Both the position numbers and the translations under genes were made by a program. A stretch of DNA of 22,042 nt from the IMG/VR virus record IMGVR_UViG_3300025128_000387, positions 1-22,042 of that record. One strand, 5' to 3'. The stretch is from a virus. The notes under the pieces were generated by a model. The model did not search any database, was not told the DNA's origin, and saw only the letters and a program-made list of their open reading frames with translations. Shown here one piece after another: positions 8,820 through 22,042 of this stretch (positions are counted from its first letter, which is position 1; each line of letters begins with the position of its first letter).

Positions 8820-9374
8820 CTAATTCTCCCCAATTGTCATACATTCAGATAAAACTTGAGAAGCTTTTTCTGCCGAGACCATGAACCACTCGCCTCGCCC
8901 CTGGCGGGCATCTTCAAGACTCTGGTGGACCTGGCGTTCAGCTTCCCGCCTGTCGGCGAACCACCGCGAATCAATCAGGCGGTAATTTCTGTAAGGGTCG
9001 CTCGTCTGGAAGCTCCTCAACCTGCTCTCAGCAGAGAGCGCCGACCCTATTTTCACGACGCCAGGCCATACATCGTTGGCGATGACGTACACGAACCCTT
9101 CCCTGACACTCACATGAGGAGCTTCAAGGCTTTTTAGGTCGGTTCCGTAAAGCTCACGGACGCGCGTCTCATGTGCTGAACGCCAATTCTTGTAGCGACC
9201 GGCAGGTATCCCGAGCCCGAGCTGTGTCCCCGCGTATTTACCGGCCACCCATACCCGTTGTGGGTTATGGTAGCCGTTACGGATCGCCCTGTGCTTGCGG
9301 CAGTATGTGTCATCAGGAGCTGGCGCACCGCAATCAGCGCAGCGCCTAGTGTGTGTAGGCCCAGCTAGGTCCAA
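8820..9374 (-). CDS. Zinc-ribbon plus GIY-YIG (T5orf172/MUG113-like) nuclease
   Basis: From the TTG at 9374 this is a 184-aa protein with two parts. Residues about 12-30 hold a zinc-ribbon-like 'RRCADCGAPAPDDTYCRKH'. Residues about 95-180 hold a GIY-YIG fold of the T5orf172 type: 'GFVYVIANDVWPGVVKIGSA', then 'SRLRSFQTSDPY' with the catalytic-type Arg, 'RREAERQVHQSL' with the catalytic-type Glu, and 'GRGEWFMVS'. The open frame extends to 9539, deep inside the polymerase gene, but TTG 9374 has GGAG 9 nt upstream and leaves only a 29-nt overlap. This start is a judgement. The gene sits between polymerase and exonuclease, which are adjacent or nearly so in many relatives, so it looks like a mobile nuclease or an acquired moron. 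Homing activity is inference. Confidence 0.78.
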   Translation of the reverse strand: MDLAGPTHTRRCADCGAPAPDDTYCRKHRAIRNGYHNPQRVWVAGKYAGTQLGLGIPAGRYKNWRSAHETRVRELYGTDLKSLEAPHVSVREGFVYVIANDVWPGVVKIGSALSAESRLRSFQTSDPYRNYRLIDSRWFADRREAERQVHQSLEDARQGRGEWFMVSAEKASQVLSECMTIGEN

Positions 9375-11358
9375 CTCTAAATTCTCCGTCGAGCTGGCAC
9401 TTGAAATTATAGTGCCGTCCAGCGTCTCGGATGCTGGCCACTGCAAGCCTTCCAATTGTCTCACTGTGGGTCTCCTTGGCTGCGTATTGAATTTCGTCGT
9501 GGACGTGGGCGACGTTCGCGAAATCTCGGCCCCACTCAAGGCCAGAGCTAAGGATGCTCTGATGCGCCAGGACGGTGGCTTTCTTCACCACGATGCCACC
9601 ACACGATTGCAGCAAGGTGTTGAGTGCAGCGTGTGTCGACCTGACTTTGACCTTGCGCCCGTCGATAGCCGTGAGGTTCCCCGCCTTCTTGGCCTTCGCC
9701 TTGACCCTATGGGTGAGCGTGTCCAGAGCGGGTAAGGCGCTAAGAAAGGAGGCACGAAGCCTGGCTGCAGCCTTTGGCCCCTGACTTATGTACTCCCCCA
9801 GCGTGGCGTCCGATGCGCCGTACAGGAACGCGTAAATCCAGGTCTTCGCCAGAGCCCGACCGGTCGCGTTGCGGCCCTTGATCCGGTACAGCTTCTCAGG
9901 CTCAAACCCTAGCTTTACCGCGTGGAACGAATGGATGTCTCCGTTCAACAAGCGGTCGGCATACTCGCCCTGGTCATATCGGTGCATGTAATGAGCGAGG
10001 CACCTCAGCTCTAAGCCTGAAGCGTCGACGCCAACCATGACCATCCCCTTCGGAGCTGTGAAGAGATCACGGAAGTCAGCACCGAAGCCCCCTTCTCTAC
10101 CGAAGACCAGGTGCTTCTTGCCGTTGCTATCCTCACGAGTTTTGGCGCTCGGGAATTGGGCGCAGTTTGGCTTCGAGTGCGAGCATCGGCCTGTGACCGT
10201 TCCAGTCGACATGACTCGGCCATGAAGCCTGCCATCCTTGCCGACGCTCTTGAGGATCGCCTCACGTCCTTCCGAGAGCTGACCCAGGCGTTTGCCGACC
10301 ATCAGATACTCAGCGATGACCTTGGCCTCGTCATAGGGAAGCTTCGAGATGATGTCGTCGGTGACCGAAGGCTTTCCATCTTTGCCGAACTCTGTCGGCT
10401 TCCAGCCGTAGCGCTTGATCAGCCGGTCGGCGATGTGATCTCTGCTCGCAGGGTTGAAGGTGACGAGCTTGGCCTTCGTGTATGAACTGCCTTCGTTAAA
10501 CTCCATAAGGACAGGCCCGACGTAGGGCTTGAGTGCCTTGCCGGTCTTCTCGGAGACACGATCAACCGTGACTGTGCCGAGCTCAGGACATTTCAACTTG
10601 CGGTCCGCTTTAGGATCGACCGCTGGCCCTTCCGGCTTCCACCACGGCTGGAATGATTCTTCGAGCTCAACGCCTAGATCGTATTTGAGTTGCGTGAGCT
10701 CGGCCTGGAGACTGGCAGCCTTGTGCAGGTCCACCGGCAGACCAAACTTTTGCTGGCGGTCCATGAGCTCCTGGAAGTCGTGCTCCAGGTTGATGCTCTC
10801 TGACGAAAAGCTCTGCTCGTTGATCTTTAGGACGAGGTCGCGTGTGACACCCGTGTCCAGCTCGCAATAGTCCTGCATCGCAGGGTTCCAGGCCGCCCAG
10901 GGGTCCAGACCCTTTTCCTTCATCTCGGCAGCGTAGTCGCCCTTCCAATTTCCAAGACGATGGCCCCAGGCGTCGAGGCTGTGGCTGCCGTAGAGACGTG
11001 TCGGCAGGGATAAGCGCTTCTGCTCGACCCGTGCCATGTCGCTCTTGCGCAGGTCAGGAGTGGGCCAAACCATGCGCGCGGTGATGAGGCTGTCACGCAC
11101 CGTCGGGCCGTGACGCCAGGATGGGTAGACCTTCTCGATGGCGGGGATGTCGAAGCCCAGGCCGTTGTGCCACCACACGCCCTCAACGTCGTCGCCATTG
11201 ATGCGCGCAAGACCGTCAGGGATGTTTGGGTGGCCGTCAGACGCTGCAGCGCATGACAGGACGAGATCGCCGGTCTCTAAGTCCCGCAGGACGAGCGAGT
11301 GGATGGTCGTCAGCTTGTCGAGAAGCCCGTTCGTTTCTAGGTCAGCAATCAGAATCAT
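9346..11358 (-). CDS. DNA polymerase, family A (T7 gp5-like)
   Basis: Replicative polymerase with proofreading, 670 aa (T7 gp5 is 704). Exonuclease residues: D6 and E8 in 'DLETNGL', D70 in 'HNGLGFD', and Y164/D168 in 'YCELD'. Polymerase motifs: A with D445 in 'GVDASGLELR'; B with R501, K505 and Y509 in 'RALAKTWIYAFLYGAS'; C with D621 in 'HVHDEIQ'. All catalytic positions are intact. Y509 aligns with T7 Tyr526 and E. coli Pol I Phe762, the residue that sets speed and dideoxynucleotide discrimination. The start ATG shares one base with the TGA of the primase gene (TGATG), so translation is coupled. The 3' end overlaps the GIY-YIG gene by 29 nt. It acts with the primase-helicase and single-stranded DNA-binding protein encoded just upstream. 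Confidence 0.97.
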   Translation of the reverse strand: MILIADLETNGLLDKLTTIHSLVLRDLETGDLVLSCAAASDGHPNIPDGLARINGDDVEGVWWHNGLGFDIPAIEKVYPSWRHGPTVRDSLITARMVWPTPDLRKSDMARVEQKRLSLPTRLYGSHSLDAWGHRLGNWKGDYAAEMKEKGLDPWAAWNPAMQDYCELDTGVTRDLVLKINEQSFSSESINLEHDFQELMDRQQKFGLPVDLHKAASLQAELTQLKYDLGVELEESFQPWWKPEGPAVDPKADRKLKCPELGTVTVDRVSEKTGKALKPYVGPVLMEFNEGSSYTKAKLVTFNPASRDHIADRLIKRYGWKPTEFGKDGKPSVTDDIISKLPYDEAKVIAEYLMVGKRLGQLSEGREAILKSVGKDGRLHGRVMSTGTVTGRCSHSKPNCAQFPSAKTREDSNGKKHLVFGREGGFGADFRDLFTAPKGMVMVGVDASGLELRCLAHYMHRYDQGEYADRLLNGDIHSFHAVKLGFEPEKLYRIKGRNATGRALAKTWIYAFLYGASDATLGEYISQGPKAAARLRASFLSALPALDTLTHRVKAKAKKAGNLTAIDGRKVKVRSTHAALNTLLQSCGGIVVKKATVLAHQSILSSGLEWGRDFANVAHVHDEIQYAAKETHSETIGRLAVASIRDAGRHYNFKCQLDGEFRVGPSWAYTH

Positions 11359-15403: not shown

Positions 15404-17887
15404 TCATGCGAAGAAAAAATCGGACTCCAGGACGTCTTCGATCTGCAGCGACCCGCTGTCAGGCACTGGTGGAAGATCATCCTCACCTCCAGGCAGCGCC
15501 TCGCCCACCTGGCGGCGGAAGTCCTGCAGCACATCACTGTCGGTGTAGAGCTCGACGAACGCTACCCGGAGGCACTGGTTCATCAATTCGATGTTGGCGG
15601 CGTGTGTCGCGTAGCTGTCATGCACCATGCCCCAGTGCTTGATCCCGAGTTCGTCGCCGATGCAGACCGTCCTCGCAAGGTGGGCCGCGTCTAAGCTGTG
15701 AACCCAGTTCGGCGACACCCCGTTGCGCTGGCGGCGGGTGTCGACCTTGTCCGTCTCGGACGTCATGTTGAGCTTGATGATGACGTCACCGATCTTGGTT
15801 TTCAGCCTGCGGCGGCGCATCTCTCTGTAGGGCTGCACGACCGGCAGGCCGGAAGGTGATGTCCAAGAGACCGGGACGCCATGCTTCGTGACAATCGATG
15901 AAACTTCGCGCAGCCAAGCCATTGCTTGTCGAGCAGCTACGACGACCTCGCCGATGCTGTCCCACACAATCTTCGCAAGGAACTGTGTCGCCTTGAACCT
16001 GTTGAAACGCCCGAACGGGTCAGGCCTTGTCTTCGGATCGCAATCCTCGTCCAGCCACGCTTCGACGTACTCACGGCAGCTATGAAGCGTCCCGCCATAG
16101 GGGAGCACCATGACAGGACGCTTCGTGCCTCGGCGATCAACGCCGAACTCTAGCCACAGCGGCGCAAACCCGGTCGGGTCCGCTTCGTCATCTCCGCTCA
16201 CGGCTTCCAACTTCTCGACCACGACATCAGCCACGAGCTGATAGATGTCCTGCGGCCCCTCCGATGGCGTCAGGTTTGTGGCCGCACCGCCTATCGGGTC
16301 GCGCAAAGCTGAAGAGAAATGCTGCAGCCCGTTACACGCGCCGTCGACCTGAACCGGGATGCGGCTGACGTAGCCATAGCCATGCTCCAGTAGGCCAGCG
16401 ACCTCGAAACAGGCCGCGAGGAACTGCCAGGGCTTGTCGGCGTTTTCCCACCAAGTGTTGCCGAGCGGGTCCGAGGCTGTCTCGATCATGAGATCGCTGT
16501 GCTCATCGGTCCATCCCACCCTCTGATCGAGCGGGCACTTGTCCTCGCCGTACATGTTGGCTGCGTGGATGTAGAGCCATCCGGCAGCTTCCTCGCTGTC
16601 TATGGGAAGGCCGTCAGCAAACTCTAGGAGGCTGCGAGCATGGTCATTGCCCTGCGGCGTGAAGCCGTTCGCTGCGACCGCGTAAATGCGCCCTCGGAAA
16701 TCAACCTGGTGAACAAAGAAGAACGCCTTCTCGTCACGATAGCGCTCGGCCACATGAACGGTCTTTGCGATCATGAGGCGGCGGCTGATAAGGCTTGCAT
16801 TGTGGTCGTGGACGGCTGTCGCACGCTCCTTCCAGCGCAGGAAATCAACCAGCTCAGCCTTGGTCATCTCAGCCTTGCGGATGCGCTCTGGAATGTGAGC
16901 AGGGCGCGGCGGGATATCCTCGGCATCGGGAGGTGGCGTGTTGCCGACCGTGAGGCCGGCATCGACGACGTGGCGCATCACGTCTAGCACCCTCGTGTTG
17001 ACCCGCCAGCGTGTCGACTGGACCGCGTTGATCGAGCGGTAAACCTGGGTCAGGTGCGGCGTGAGATTGGTCAGCTCTTCGAGGTAGGGCTGGTTCCTGG
17101 TTTTAACCAAGGTCAGCCCCGGCCCGATCTCCGTGTGGTATCCGCCATCGCGCGGGCTGGTCCACGGTCGCGGGGCGACAACGCAAGGCAGGTAAGCTGG
17201 CGTCAACAACTCGCAGGCATCGATCTTGCGCGACACCCAGTCGAGTGTTGCTGCCGTAGCTCGCACAAATATCCTCGTGTCCTTCAGGCCCCGCGCGTCT
17301 TTGTCCAGTTCCACCAGGCCGGTGGATTTGATGAACAGGTCGATGGCCTTCAGGCCGACGTGGACCCGGCTGACCTTGCCCCAAGACTCAAACGTCTTGT
17401 CGCCCCGCTTAGCACCAGCGACCAGGACGGCTCGCCGATGCTTTTTGTGCGACGATGTGGACAGCTTGAGCAGCTGATTCCAGCGCCACTGGTCTGTCTC
17501 GGTGATGAACGACGCGAGCCTCACTTCGTCTTCCAGTGCCGTACCAACAAGCAGCGCGGTGTGCTGGAGCTGAAAACCTGGCGTCAGTGTGTTCAGGATT
17601 TGGCGAGCGATGATGAACGCCGCTACCTCCGGGTCGAGCATCTCAAAATACTTGAGCGAGCTGTGTCGCCGCCCCACCTGACCTGCCCGAGCCGCCGTAA
17701 TGAACTCCTGGATGGCGACAGCCAGCGGCTCAATGGCTTGCTTGATCAACCGCTGGCCGTAAGGTGTCGAACCCTCGTCGCCCCTATCCTGTGCACGGCG
17801 GATGGATCGCATGTAGCGCTCAGCGCCGAGATTCGACATCTCAACCTCAAGCTCAATCTGCCTGGTCATCAAGCTGTCGTCTGTCAT
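15404..17887 (-). CDS. Single-subunit DNA-dependent RNA polymerase (T7 gp1-like)
   Basis: Transcribes phage middle and late genes from phage promoters. From ATG 17887 it is 827 aa (T7 883). The frame is open 60 codons further, but GGGAG lies 7 nt before this ATG, and the extra stretch is Cys-rich and unlike the family. Catalytic residues by motif: D515 in 'QVDGACNGLQHFS', K589 and Y597 in 'TKRPVMVLPYGG', and D757 in 'GMVHDSYATH'. These match T7 D537, K631, Y639 and D812. 'VDFRGRIYAVAANGFTPQGND' and 'GVSPNWVHSLDAAHL' are further diagnostic blocks. The C-terminus 'DFFFA' matches the 'FAFA' foot of T7 polymerase, which is needed for activity. It is preceded by the integrase and a 315-nt regulatory gap, so host RNA polymerase must transcribe it first. 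Confidence 0.97.
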   Translation of the reverse strand: MTDDSLMTRQIELEVEMSNLGAERYMRSIRRAQDRGDEGSTPYGQRLIKQAIEPLAVAIQEFITAARAGQVGRRHSSLKYFEMLDPEVAAFIIARQILNTLTPGFQLQHTALLVGTALEDEVRLASFITETDQWRWNQLLKLSTSSHKKHRRAVLVAGAKRGDKTFESWGKVSRVHVGLKAIDLFIKSTGLVELDKDARGLKDTRIFVRATAATLDWVSRKIDACELLTPAYLPCVVAPRPWTSPRDGGYHTEIGPGLTLVKTRNQPYLEELTNLTPHLTQVYRSINAVQSTRWRVNTRVLDVMRHVVDAGLTVGNTPPPDAEDIPPRPAHIPERIRKAEMTKAELVDFLRWKERATAVHDHNASLISRRLMIAKTVHVAERYRDEKAFFFVHQVDFRGRIYAVAANGFTPQGNDHARSLLEFADGLPIDSEEAAGWLYIHAANMYGEDKCPLDQRVGWTDEHSDLMIETASDPLGNTWWENADKPWQFLAACFEVAGLLEHGYGYVSRIPVQVDGACNGLQHFSSALRDPIGGAATNLTPSEGPQDIYQLVADVVVEKLEAVSGDDEADPTGFAPLWLEFGVDRRGTKRPVMVLPYGGTLHSCREYVEAWLDEDCDPKTRPDPFGRFNRFKATQFLAKIVWDSIGEVVVAARQAMAWLREVSSIVTKHGVPVSWTSPSGLPVVQPYREMRRRRLKTKIGDVIIKLNMTSETDKVDTRRQRNGVSPNWVHSLDAAHLARTVCIGDELGIKHWGMVHDSYATHAANIELMNQCLRVAFVELYTDSDVLQDFRRQVGEALPGGEDDLPPVPDSGSLQIEDVLESDFFFA

Positions 17888-17954
17888 ATCCAGCTCCCTA
17901 TCTGAGGCAAAACGGTTGCAAGGGTTGCAACAGGTTTGGGCGGTCGCAAAAATT

Positions 17955-17985
17955 CTACCCAATTGGGGTAGTATCGTATGATACT
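17955..17985. repeat. Two abutting palindromes upstream of RNA polymerase
   Basis: CTACCC-AATTG-GGGTAG (17955-17971) runs directly into AGTATC-GTAT-GATACT (17970-17985). Both are exact inverted repeats with short centres. On the minus strand a TAGAAT resembling a -10 box overlaps the edge of the first palindrome, so binding here could block host transcription of the RNA polymerase gene. Confidence 0.65.
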
Positions 17986-18032
17986 CAAACGGCCTGTGAT
18001 AATGCGTTGTAAATACTCGGATTTTCATAGTT

Positions 18033-18046
18033 ATCCCGATTGGGAT
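18033..18046. repeat. Second CCCRATTGGG palindrome
   Basis: ATCCC-GATT-GGGAT is an exact inverted repeat. Its core CCCGATTGGG differs by one base from CCCAATTGGG in the 17955 palindrome, about 75 bp away. Two matching palindromes between integrase and RNA polymerase suggest paired operators. Confidence 0.6.
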
Positions 18047-18127
18047 TTCACCACGCAGAATCGACAATTACATAGAGAAATAAAATTTCCTTTAATTACA
18101 TGTACTTAGGCTTAGACACGCTCTCTA

Positions 18128-18186
18128 ATTTTGCAGATTTGCAACAAATTTTGCACCTTATTTGCGACCAAACTCGTGTCGCAAAA
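18128..18186. repeat. Clustered TTGCA / TCGCAAA boxes just past the integrase stop
   Basis: TTGCA-like boxes begin at 18131, 18139, 18151 and 18162, followed by GTCGCAAAA at 18178-18186. Spacings are 8, 12 and 11 nt, near one helical turn. Related GGTTGCAA and GTCGCAAAA copies recur on the other side of the central palindromes (17914-17951). Integrase arm sites or repressor half-sites are the main options. Confidence 0.55.
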
Positions 18187-18202
18187 CCCGCAGAACATGT
18201 CG

Positions 18203-19297
18203 TTATGATGGGCCTCGGTTATTGAAATTGTCCAGCGCCTTGATGGCAACGCTCAGGCTGGTCGTGTTGAGGTGAGCGTACCGCATCGTCTGAATGATAC
18301 TCGAGTGTCCCATGAGTTTTTGGATCATGAGTATATCGACGCCAGCCTGGGCCAGTCTGCTGGCGAACGTGTGGCGCAGAACGTGAGGCACGTACTGCTT
18401 GTCCTCTCCCAAGCCGAGCTCGACCCGTATCTTCCTGAACTTTTCTTCAAATCTCCAGTTCGCCGCCTGGCCTTCCGGCATCTCGCTGAAGACGCGCTGA
18501 GACGGTTCAACTGACCGCTTACGTAGGATCGCTAGCGCTCTTTCCGTCAGCGGCACAGCGGTGCTGTTGTGCGTTTTGCCGCGCCAGACGTTTATCCAAG
18601 GATCGCTGCCGCTGAGGTGGCAGTCTTTGCCTGTCAGCTTCCAGCACTCGTTGAGCCTCATGCCGGTGTCGATGAGCAGGATGAACTGATCGATATAGGT
18701 GTACCAGCCCTTGACCATAGCCCGCTCGATGTGCCGAAGCTCCTCATCCGGGGTCAGGTAGCGAACACGTCGGTTTGTGACCTTGCGACGCGGGATGTGC
18801 GGCACATAGCGGAGGCCGCTCTGACCCGGCCTCATCGACGCCTGCTTGAGGACCGTTGAGACATAACTCAATTTCTTGTTGATCGTCCCTGACGCATTTC
18901 CAGTCGCCAGCAAATGTTCGACTACGTTGTCGATCTTCGGCGTGTCTATGGCCGTGACGGGCGTGTCGTGGCCGACTAGTGCCATCAACTGCCTGAAATG
19001 GTGCCAGGACTCATTCTCCTGGGGCGTCCCGGACCAGACGTTGTTCAGCGTGAACTCCCAGGCCTCGCTGAAAGTCCATGGCCGCGAGTCTGTGTCTCGC
19101 TTCTTTGTCCTGGCCAGCGACGACGACGACGACAACTCCTCGTATAGCTCAGCTCGCTTCTCGCGTGCCTCCTCTAGTGTTGGGTAAGTCGCCGTCCGCC
19201 GCACACCATCGACCATAAGGTCGACCATGAACTTGCCACGGCGCAGGCGGATGCCCTTGGGCAGTTTAGCCTCAAGGCTCACACCAGCTTCAGTCAC
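18203..19297 (-). CDS. int: Tyrosine-family site-specific integrase
   Basis: Catalyses strand exchange between phage attP and bacterial attB. From GTG 19297 it is 364 aa. The catalytic set is complete: R214 ('DTGMRLNE'), K241 ('WRGKTHNS'), H305 and R308 ('HVLRHTFASRL'), H331 ('KLMGHSS') and the nucleophile Y340 ('TMRYAHL'). The N-terminal 'KGIRLRRGKFMVDLMVDGVRRTATYPTLEEA' resembles an arm-binding domain, and residues about 70-170 form the core-binding domain. The start choice rests on GGAGGTGATC 3 nt before the GTG (core spacing 8 nt); the further open frame to 19345 has no such site. The GTG overlaps the stop of the MarR-like gene by 8 nt (GTGACTGA), indicating co-expression. Its 3' end faces the candidate attP. 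Confidence 0.95.
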   Translation of the reverse strand: MTEAGVSLEAKLPKGIRLRRGKFMVDLMVDGVRRTATYPTLEEAREKRAELYEELSSSSSLARTKKRDTDSRPWTFSEAWEFTLNNVWSGTPQENESWHHFRQLMALVGHDTPVTAIDTPKIDNVVEHLLATGNASGTINKKLSYVSTVLKQASMRPGQSGLRYVPHIPRRKVTNRRVRYLTPDEELRHIERAMVKGWYTYIDQFILLIDTGMRLNECWKLTGKDCHLSGSDPWINVWRGKTHNSTAVPLTERALAILRKRSVEPSQRVFSEMPEGQAANWRFEEKFRKIRVELGLGEDKQYVPHVLRHTFASRLAQAGVDILMIQKLMGHSSIIQTMRYAHLNTTSLSVAIKALDNFNNRGPS

Positions 19298-19658
19298 CCC
19301 GATCACCTCCGAGGAGATCGACCAGGCGGTCGCGGGTCTGCTCACCTTTAGGGGTGAGCCGCGCGCACTTGCGCCGTCGCTCTTCCGGGTCCTCGAAGGA
19401 CTCGATCAAGCGAAGAGGCTGGTTGCCGCGTTGTCCCCACTCGGCCAGCTCAGACATATGGCGTGACATCGATGATTGGCTGATTCCCAGGCGCTTGCTG
19501 TACTCCTTGAACGGTCGTCCAGGGTCGGCCGCGACCATCAGGAATGTTCTTATGAGCTGCAGCGGCATGTCCCGCCGCAGGTCAGCGAATAGCTCCATCA
19601 CGTTGGCGAGATCACGCACTCTGCGTGTACGAAAAGGGTTTTCAAATGCGTCATCCAT
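19290..19658 (-). CDS. MarR-like winged-helix DNA-binding regulator
   Basis: A 122-aa protein with a winged-helix core. 'MPLQLIRTFLMVAADPGRPFKEYSKRLGISQSSMSRHMSELAEWG' (about 31-75) gives the scaffold helix, the helix-turn-helix and the recognition helix 'SQSSMSRHMSEL'. The wing and 'ARLTPKGEQTRDRLVDLL' (about 99-116) match the 'LT.KG' signature of MarR-type proteins. It lacks the long C-terminal dimer helix of full MarR proteins, so it is a short version. The ATG at 19658 has GGGAG 7 nt upstream. It is translationally coupled to the integrase and is the only regulator-like gene in the window, so control of lysogeny or of integrase dose is plausible but inferred. Confidence 0.82.
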   Translation of the reverse strand: MDDAFENPFRTRRVRDLANVMELFADLRRDMPLQLIRTFLMVAADPGRPFKEYSKRLGISQSSMSRHMSELAEWGQRGNQPLRLIESFEDPEERRRKCARLTPKGEQTRDRLVDLLGGDRGD

Positions 19659-19987: not shown

Positions 19988-20136
19988 GGGTTTGTTCTCC
20001 AGGGTAACCTGACCCGACATCGCTCCCAGGACCGGTCCTCCGGTAAATGCTGGCTCACAACGAGCACGGTAGCGCCTCTGACTCATTGGATAATAATGGG
20101 AAGGCGGTGAGCCTGCTGTTATCCAAGATCAGGGTC

Positions 20137-20178
20137 TGATGTGAAGCCTACGGTCCGCCGTAGGCCTTGGTCACATCA
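20137..20178. repeat. Large hairpin / cruciform, 42 nt
   Basis: Outer arms TGATGTGA (20137-20144) and TCACATCA (20171-20178) are exact inverses. The inner arms GCCTACGG (20146-20153) and CCGTAGGC (20158-20165) are also exact inverses around the loop TCCG. A few unpaired bases (CTTGG, 20166-20170) interrupt one side. No T run follows on either strand. Confidence 0.75.
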
Positions 20179-20316
20179 CGAATAAAGGTTCATTCCTTAC
20201 GCTCAGCATAGCAATCTCGGTGGGGCATGCTGTCGATCACGATTGATGACAATCCCGACCCCCTGTATCACCAACAATTATCGCTGTTGGTCAACAACTC
20301 CTTTCTTATGCGCTAA

Positions 20317-20345
20317 GATATAAGTACTATGCCTGTTGGGGTCAA
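20317..20345 (-). promoter_or_regulatory. Candidate sigma70-type promoter, leftward
   Basis: On the minus strand TTGACC (20345-20340) is followed by a 17-nt spacer and TATATC (20322-20317). The -35 matches 5 of 6 consensus bases and the -10 matches 4 of 6. It starts just after the reductase stop and points at the 71-aa, MarR-like and integrase genes. A similar TTGACC-AACAG stretch lies about 50 nt downstream and may be an operator. Confidence 0.5.
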
Positions 20346-20362
20346 TACGTATATTGCAAATT

Positions 20363-22042
20363 TTATCCACAGGCTGATGAGCCGCAGCTAGTGCATGTCG
20401 CGCAGCCACTGGAGCGCACCACCGCTAGCTCGCCGCACGCGCGACACAGCGATGCGTCCGTGGGGGCAGGCTCAGTCTTTGTCTTGCAGTCACAGTCACC
20501 CTGGCAGTCACCCTGGCAGTCACAGCCACAGTCACCCTGGCAGGCTCGCCCGACGACACTCTCTTCGATAATCCCGCCGATCACGGCTAGCAGGCTGGGC
20601 GTCATCCTGCCGTTGTGCCACTGGCCACCACGCGGGTCATAGACGGCCTTCAGCTCCTCGACCACGAAGCCTAAGTCACCCCCTCGTCGCATCACTGCGC
20701 TGATCATCCGAGTGAGACCGGCCATCAGGTCAGCCCCTTCGACATTCTTGGAGGTCACGAACAGCTCGAAGGGACGCCCGTCAGCGTCCGAGTTGATCGT
20801 AATGTAGTAAGCGTGGGGCGAGCTGGCGTACCTGACCTTGTGCGTCACACCTGTGAGCTTGTCGGGTCGTTCCGCTGGCACAGTGACAGTGGCTGCAGGA
20901 CCAGGGTCAGCAGGTGCGTCAGAGTTAATTGACAGCACCGACCCTCTCACCTCGTTCGGGCGATAGGTCGTGCAGCCCTTACAGCCTTCTTCGTAGGCCA
21001 TCAGGTAGACGTTCTTGAAGTCCTCGAAGGCGATGTCCTCAGGGACGTTGATGGTCTTTGAGATCGAGGTGTCGACGACACGCTGCACGGCACCTTGCAT
21101 CTTAACGTGTGCCGCTGGGCTGATGTCCTGGGCCGTCACGAAGTAGTCAGGCAGCGGTGCGTCGTCACCCCGCATGCGACGGTAGAGGCGCACGGCATAG
21201 TCGGCGACCTCCTCGTCACGCTTGCTGCCATCCTTCTGCAGAACCTTGCGCGTGTACGAGGTGGCGAAGATGGGTTCGATGCCGGAGCTGACGTTGTCTG
21301 CGAACAGGGAGATCGTGCCCGTCGGAGCGATGGAGGTCAGAGTTCCGTTGCGAAGCCCCTGGTTCGCGAAAGTCTTCTGGAGGTCAGGCGGAAGGTCGAG
21401 CATGTTGTAACTGGACAGCGCGGCCTCACGCCAGGCCGGGTAGGCCCCCTTCTCCGCAGCCAGGTCAGTCGACGCCTGGTACGCTGCGACCTTCATCGCG
21501 TAGGCCCACTCGTTCGCCAGGGCACGCCCTTCATCGCTGTCATAGCGCACCTGCATCATGGCAAGGGAGCTGGCGAGACCAGTCAAGCCCAGACCCAACC
21601 GCCTCTTCGCGTTGGCCTCAGCCTCTTGCTCGGGGTGCGGAAAGCGTGACACGTCAATCGTGTTGTCGAGCATACGGATGGCGAGAGCGACGTCCTGCGT
21701 GAACTGATCTTTATTGAAGCGGACACGCTCGGTGAATGGGTCCGAGATGTACCGGGTCAGGTTCATCGAGCCGAGAAGACACGCGCCGTGCGGTGGTAGG
21801 GGCTGCTCGCCGCATGGGTTGGTCGCCGCCAGGTCCTCGCAGTGCGACAGGTTCGACCGTTCGTTGATCCTGTCGATGAACAACACGCCAGGTTCGGCAT
21901 AGGCGTAGGTCGAACTGATGATCTCATGCCAGAGGTCACGCGCTTGAATCGTTTGGTAGACCACCCCGTCGAACTTCAAGTCGAACGATGTGTCCTCAGC
22001 CACAGCTCGCATGAGCTCGTCGGTCACTGCGACGGACACGTT
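20363..22042 (-). CDS. nrdJ: Class II (adenosylcobalamin-dependent) ribonucleotide reductase, N-terminus cut by window edge
   Basis: Reduces ribonucleotides to deoxyribonucleotides for phage DNA synthesis. 559 residues are visible. The frame stays open to the right edge; the first visible residues 'NVSVAVTDELM' are an internal family block, so the true start lies outside. Class II features: 'TNPCGEQPLPPHGACLLGSMNL' with the active-site Cys, 'LDNTIDVSRFPHPEQEAEANAKRRLGLGLTG', 'IAPTGTISLFADNVSSGIEPIF' and 'YEEGCKGCTTYRPN'. The C-terminal 'CRACGELAVVRSSGCATCTSCGSSACG' region is the usual redox or metal-binding tail, but before it lies an extra Cys-rich repeat of CQGDC blocks. The gene is early and upstream of the integrase and RNA polymerase, whereas T7-like cyanophages carry it among later DNA-metabolism genes. 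Use would depend on host cobalamin. Confidence 0.93.
   Translation of the reverse strand, partial: NVSVAVTDELMRAVAEDTSFDLKFDGVVYQTIQARDLWHEIISSTYAYAEPGVLFIDRINERSNLSHCEDLAATNPCGEQPLPPHGACLLGSMNLTRYISDPFTERVRFNKDQFTQDVALAIRMLDNTIDVSRFPHPEQEAEANAKRRLGLGLTGLASSLAMMQVRYDSDEGRALANEWAYAMKVAAYQASTDLAAEKGAYPAWREAALSSYNMLDLPPDLQKTFANQGLRNGTLTSIAPTGTISLFADNVSSGIEPIFATSYTRKVLQKDGSKRDEEVADYAVRLYRRMRGDDAPLPDYFVTAQDISPAAHVKMQGAVQRVVDTSISKTINVPEDIAFEDFKNVYLMAYEEGCKGCTTYRPNEVRGSVLSINSDAPADPGPAATVTVPAERPDKLTGVTHKVRYASSPHAYYITINSDADGRPFELFVTSKNVEGADLMAGLTRMISAVMRRGGDLGFVVEELKAVYDPRGGQWHNGRMTPSLLAVIGGIIEESVVGRACQGDCGCDCQGDCQGDCDCKTKTEPAPTDASLCRACGELAVVRSSGCATCTSCGSSACG
20486..20543. repeat. Degenerate tandem repeat (GCAGTCACCCTG units) inside the reductase gene
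   Basis: Near-identical 12-nt units GCAGTCACCCTG, with variants ending in CAGCCA or CAGT, follow one another. On the coding strand they encode repeated CQGDC blocks in the C-terminal tail of the reductase. The unit length is a multiple of three, so gain or loss of units keeps the frame. Confidence 0.85.

Follow-up and report, generated by a model that had tools for sequence, protein, structure and literature searches.

At which point does a T7-like phage that carries an integrase open its genome to recombine with a bacterial chromosome? The question is raised by a 22-kb IMG/VR virus fragment from a T7-like phage (the window, i.e. the whole stretch of 22,042 nucleotides that was analysed), whose genes lie on the minus strand. 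They follow one another in the order ribonucleotide reductase, small ORF, MarR-type winged-helix regulator, tyrosine integrase (int), a 315-bp gap and T7-like RNA polymerase (RNAP). A sequence-only reading had proposed the block 17888–18202 as a candidate attP adjoining the 3' end of the integrase gene. This block turned out to be the entire int-RNAP gap: it is bounded by the end of the integrase stop codon at 18203 (minus strand) and by the start of RNAP at 17887. The gap contains 42% G+C versus 58% for the window. The features of the locus are as follows.

15404–17887, minus strand: T7-like RNA polymerase (Pfam PF00940, 9.2e-108; PHROG 414, 1.1e-253)
17888–18202, minus strand: int-RNAP intergenic gap, proposed attP (junctions of 20 relatives' prophages in the equivalent gap)
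18203–19345, minus strand: tyrosine integrase, 380 amino acids, GTG start (Pfam PF00589, 1.1e-26; alignments, AlphaFold2, Foldseek)
19290–19658, minus strand: small winged-helix (MarR-type) regulator, overlapping the integrase start (PHROG 9665, transcriptional regulator, 5e-26)

The MarR-type regulator has the equivalent position in the CRP phages and in LUZ100. No tRNA or Rfam element was found in the gap, and no tRNA gene in the 22-kb window, which is a partial genome. Elsewhere in the window, the ORF at 8820–9539, which overlaps the ends of the DNA polymerase and exonuclease genes, contains a T5orf172/MUG113 (GIY-YIG-type) domain and is perhaps a homing endonuclease. The sequence TTATCCACA, the same as a DnaA box, lies at about 20363–20372, at the 3' end of the ribonucleotide reductase gene.

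Related prophages recombine between the integrase and the RNA polymerase

The MarR-int-gap-RNAP order is the same in Roseobacter CRP phages, pelagiphages, Rhizobium RHEph phages and LUZ100. A profile search with RNAP provided 80 loci each from IMG/VR and from GTDB genomes. In free phages with an integrase, int lies directly before RNAP with a gap of mostly 170–630 bp, while the chromosomal loci usually have no integrase within 10 kb before RNAP. When 31 chromosomal genomes were searched with an integrase profile, int was found on the contig and strand of RNAP, 37–43 kb downstream of it, in 20. The two genes are thus adjacent in free phages and 37–43 kb apart in these 20 prophages, which indicates recombination between int and RNAP. 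In the window, too, they are adjacent; the separation was observed in prophages of relatives.

The DNA after int was then compared with the DNA before RNAP. This comparison yielded shared cores at the junctions of 17 of the 20 prophages, the remaining three being L105, L123 and L129; an eighteenth junction came from L120, which stands outside the 20 with int only ~9 kb from RNAP. Most resolved cores belong to tRNA-Leu (UAA or UAG), those of two Xanthobacter prophages to tRNA-Cys and that of Roseomonas to tRNA-Ser. In some cases the shared core is the anticodon stem-loop alone (8–17 nt), in others a long half tRNA of as much as about 80 nt, mismatches included. Rejoining the host flanks gave an intact tRNA gene at every one of the 17 sites tested, among them L120 and one Xanthobacter prophage of the two. 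Together, these results show that the int-RNAP gap is the recombination site in this lineage, and they strongly support the proposal of the gap as an attP candidate.

An attP elsewhere in the phage was also considered, for example in the gap on the ribonucleotide reductase side (19988–20362), another non-coding gap near the integrase module and the place that the sequence-only reading had itself named for possible contrary junctions. None of the 20 prophages has a junction there or anywhere upstream of MarR-int, all 17 resolved cores sit after the int stop and before RNAP, and the density of the boxes described below is at background in 19988–20362 (one box hexamer). A location outside the int-RNAP gap is highly improbable.

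Repeated boxes occupy both sides of the gap

Direct reading and counting confirmed that all boxes named in the sequence-only reading are present at their positions, with two corrections of detail. GTCGCAAAA occurs at 17943–17951 and 18178–18186, with no other copy in the window, and GGTTGCAA is in tandem at 17914–17921 and 17923–17930. The inverted 9-nt element is indeed found at 18161–18169 (TTTGCGACC), but as the strict inverse of GGTCGCAAA (17942–17950) rather than of GTCGCAAAA; it has 8 nt in common with both GTCGCAAAA copies. The TTGCA cluster reported at 18131–18166 comprises three TTGCA (18131, 18139 and 18151), whereas the fourth site, at 18162, reads TTGCG. The boxes are grouped as follows.

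17914–17930, no strand assigned: RNAP-side candidate arm-type boxes, tandem GGTTGCAA (GTTGCA/TGCAAC is the most enriched hexamer in 45 relatives' gaps)
17942–17951, plus strand: RNAP-side box GGTCGCAAAA (8-mer in common with two int-side copies)
18127–18155, no strand assigned: int-side boxes AATTTTGCA, TTTGCAAC, AATTTTGCA (reading and hexamer enrichment)
18161–18186, no strand assigned: int-side inverted pair TTTGCGACC ... GTCGCAAAA (shared 8-mer)

Box hexamers (TTGCAA/TCGCAA/TTGCGA; TYGCAA/TTGCRA) number 6 in the gap versus a mean of 0.24 per 315-bp segment elsewhere (maximum 2), a statistic that was picked after the sequence was seen. The 8-mer statistic was not tuned to the sequence and gave 10 repeated 8-mer pairs in the gap, where 1.86 are expected from dinucleotide shuffles (p ~0.005, the lowest value that this test can give). 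Five boxes are common to both sides of the gap versus 0.65–1.03 expected (p 0.002–0.03, by choice of split). The boxes in the gap are clearly non-random.

In an unbiased search, all hexamers were counted in the gaps of 45 non-redundant relatives, with tRNA genes masked and the window excluded. GTTGCA/TGCAAC ranked first (39 versus 9.2 expected, in 20 of the 45 gaps), ahead of GTGAC-type boxes and of words from the tRNA-Leu core; GTTGCA is present 4 times in the window versus 0.26 expected. Repeated 8-mers are also in excess in the relatives' gaps, at p ≤0.02 in about half of those tested. Where junctions define the site, repeated 8-mers are common to the int-side and the RNAP-side arm in 7 of 15 prophages (p about 0.013 or less), and boxes flank the core on both sides in 10 of 18 gaps of free-phage relatives with a located core, typically at a distance of tens of bp to about 150 bp. 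The two-sided arrangement is therefore common, although not universal, in the lineage.

The sequence-only reading had made its proposal depend on conservation of the boxes among phages with the same integrase. The box class is enriched lineage-wide, but a site-by-site alignment lacks a close relative: single-protein scans of IMG/VR with int or RNAP found none, and the best integrase match (~37–38% identity, IMG/VR) is too distant to align the boxes site by site.

The integrase is intact and has a predicted arm-binding domain

The integrase ORF is intact and alignments identify all the catalytic residues (R230, K257, H321, R324, H347 and Y356; R-K-H-R-H-Y). In the AlphaFold2 model (pLDDT 85.5), residues 32–79 form three strands plus a helix, of arm-binding type, and Foldseek aligned the model with Tn1549 Int and full-length lambda Int (~365 columns for the latter). 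The integrase has no match to a Pfam arm domain; from the model, an N-terminal arm-binding domain is predicted, and it fits the presence of arm sites. The lineage-wide enrichment of GTTGCA and the modelled domain both support reading the boxes as putative arm sites that the integrase would bind.

Taking these elements together, we consider it highly likely that 17888–18202 serves a temperate or potentially temperate T7-like phage as its attP, with arm boxes and a core between the box clusters. This phage probably integrates. The catalytic and core-binding domains of the integrase would bind the core somewhere in the following interval, and its N-terminal arm-binding domain would bind the TTGCAA/GTCGCAA boxes on both sides.

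17952–18126 (approximate limits of core binding), no strand assigned: interval between the box clusters, presumed place of the crossover core (two-sided boxes in 10 of 18 relatives' gaps)

Recombination with a bacterial attB would then open the phage genome between int and RNAP, and these two genes would come to lie at opposite ends of the prophage.

Palindromes and possible regulatory elements

Three palindromes, CTACCCAATTGGGGTAG, AGTATCGTATGATACT and ATCCCGATTGGGAT, are present in the gap.

17955–17971, minus strand: CTACCCAATTGGGGTAG, palindrome CTACCC-CAATT-GGGTAG then AATTTTT (terminator-like scan; fold z -2.8 for 17945–17985)
17970–17985, no strand assigned: AGTATCGTATGATACT, palindrome AGTATC-GTAT-GATACT, possible operator or core (reading, fold)
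18033–18046, no strand assigned: ATCCCGATTGGGAT, palindrome ATCCC-GATT-GGGAT, possible core-type inverted repeat (reading, fold)

Their initial interpretation as cores found no support: one of them looks like an intrinsic terminator, and no IMG/VR contig searched contains any of them. Exact scans of IMG/VR found neither the palindrome at 17970–17985 together with its neighbour nor the one at 18033–18046. The palindrome at 17955–17971 is more likely a terminator of the MarR-int transcript than a core, because it scores in the terminator-like scan and because the LUZ100 gap also holds a terminator; most likely, it would end this transcript before RNAP. Two terminator-like hairpins (17915–17931 and 17955–17971) were detected on the phage coding strand just before RNAP, versus 0.5 expected. 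The tandem GGTTGCAA was also considered as a terminator, since it scores as a weak hairpin terminator, but the box reading was preferred because the same word is enriched in the relatives' gaps.

A point against the attP reading is that several boxes lie 27–43 bp upstream of the RNAP start codon, a position at which binding of a regulator is also conceivable. Boxes and palindromes might then be operators in a promoter/terminator region through which the MarR-type repressor shuts off RNAP in lysogeny, independently of recombination. The winged-helix regulator is encoded next to the gap, the palindromes are on the RNAP side with a terminator score for one of them, and the LUZ100 gap contains both a terminator and a phage promoter, MarR having been suggested to bind ahead of RNAP in that phage. 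However, the box words recur on the int side, where no RNAP promoter is expected, the boxes of relatives often flank a junction-defined or located core, and recombination in the lineage takes place in this gap. Regulation alone is thus a rather unlikely explanation of the boxes, and operator and attP functions can coexist.

Core and bacterial target

Anticodon-loop cores are conspicuous in many relatives, 15 of which are at the floor of the test. In the window, the best match to such a core is 9 nt (shuffle mean 9.0, p 0.64), in a search that rare isoacceptors or very short cores would escape. A search for attB in 385 Alphaproteobacteria, 369 genomes in the class of G002 and 398 genomes phylum-wide (~1,150) gave no match; this result is uninformative because cores can be as short as 8–17 nt and would escape it. 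Exact matches of 18–20 nt to gap positions 213–232 in two genomes were attributed to chance, as they lie in unrelated genes. A 12-nt partial tRNA-Leu relic, CGTGGTGAAATC, was no better than the best shuffles, and AAAATCC at a matching distance from it, spotted by eye afterwards, is not claimed.

The sequence-only reading had suggested a target other than a tRNA gene from the lack of a visible tRNA 3' end. The target may lie outside tRNA genes, but the argument is weak because cores in this lineage can be 8–17 nt of an anticodon stem-loop, invisible to tRNA finders. Tentatively, the phage may have left the anticodon-loop targets of most resolved relatives and may integrate at another, probably protein-gene or intergenic, site while keeping the arm-box architecture of the lineage.

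The lack of an anticodon-loop core in the window and of an attB in the genomes searched would also fit a degraded, non-functional att site, with a relic integrase module and a core that no longer exists. Some T7-like phages gave no stable lysogens (PMC8776855, PMC10134795). The integrase ORF, however, is intact with all its catalytic residues and the two-sided boxes are still strongly non-random, so that degradation appears improbable.

Comparison with known systems

Recombination sites of T7-like phages had been described as rarely mapped, but attP sites have already been mapped in cyanophages. According to PMC8776855, P-SSP7 and S-TIP37 are, as here, T7-like phages with a tyrosine integrase and an attP just downstream of int; both int and attP are required for integration in this system, the attP of S-TIP37 having been shown to be required by deletion. 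A T7-like attP downstream of int is thus already known experimentally, and the window very probably adds one with no located core. That source reports a core matching 39 bp of a host tRNA-Leu gene, whereas none is visible in the window; its passages cited here do not describe arm boxes.

Pelagiphages, Roseobacter CRP phages, LUZ100 and Pasto share the MarR-int-RNAP order with the window, and their integrases are 27–34% identical to that of the window. Their gaps measure ~250–380 bp in most cases and are much longer in Pasto, compared with 315 bp in the window. Most resolved relatives have a tRNA-Leu, tRNA-Cys or tRNA-Ser core in the gap, unlike the window, where none is visible. Phage lambda likewise combines a three-domain integrase, whose arm-binding domain is predicted here, with repeated boxes flanking a core, whose place in the window is presumed. 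In contrast, the lambda boxes differ from those of the window in sequence and spacing, and the lambda core is mapped while that of the window is not.

A possible tRNA-dependent mode of lysogeny in relatives

Among the 17 sites tested, six prophages (L172, L126, L102, L099, L116 and L107) leave the host tRNA-Leu split at the anticodon loop and not rebuilt, and each of the six brings along a phage tRNA-Leu whose anticodon is that of the split host gene. The other eleven (L103, L114, L120, L168, L124, L117, L111, L115, L136, L147 and L137) rebuild the tRNA, and none of them has a further tRNA in the 3 kb upstream of int. For independent sites, the probability of this pattern by chance would be about 1 in 12,000; the relatedness of L172 and L126 makes the real significance lower. 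An intact tRNA, always tRNA-Leu, is present beside the integrase in 27 of 101 free-phage int-RNAP loci (near-duplicates included; examples are L208, L211, L149, L210, L009, L010 and L008). In these loci the gap usually also contains an anticodon-loop core of that isoacceptor, separate from the tRNA gene.

This pattern looks like the signature of tRNA-dependent lysogeny in T7-like phages, in which the phage tRNA would replace the split one. This mode has been described in actinobacteriophages, its prevalence elsewhere being left open (Guerrero-Bustamante and Hatfull 2024, PMC10865867); there, as in the relatives analysed here, a short core splits the host tRNA and the phage carries the cognate tRNA. 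Since the window contains no tRNA, its use by this phage is not implied.

For the phage of the window, which is an unclassified T7-like phage, these results narrow the integration site down to 315 bp. They also provide a rule for the lineage: once the int-RNAP gap is located, the prophage ends follow. The authors of the LUZ100 study suggested imprecise excision as a possible origin of its tRNA-Leu, which would then be a remnant (PMC10134795); a phage tRNA-Leu that matches the anticodon of the split host gene would give a direct use for the tRNA-Leu of phages such as LUZ100. The pattern seen in the relatives suggests that T7-like phages use tRNA-dependent lysogeny, the mode that PMC10865867 describes in actinobacteriophages.
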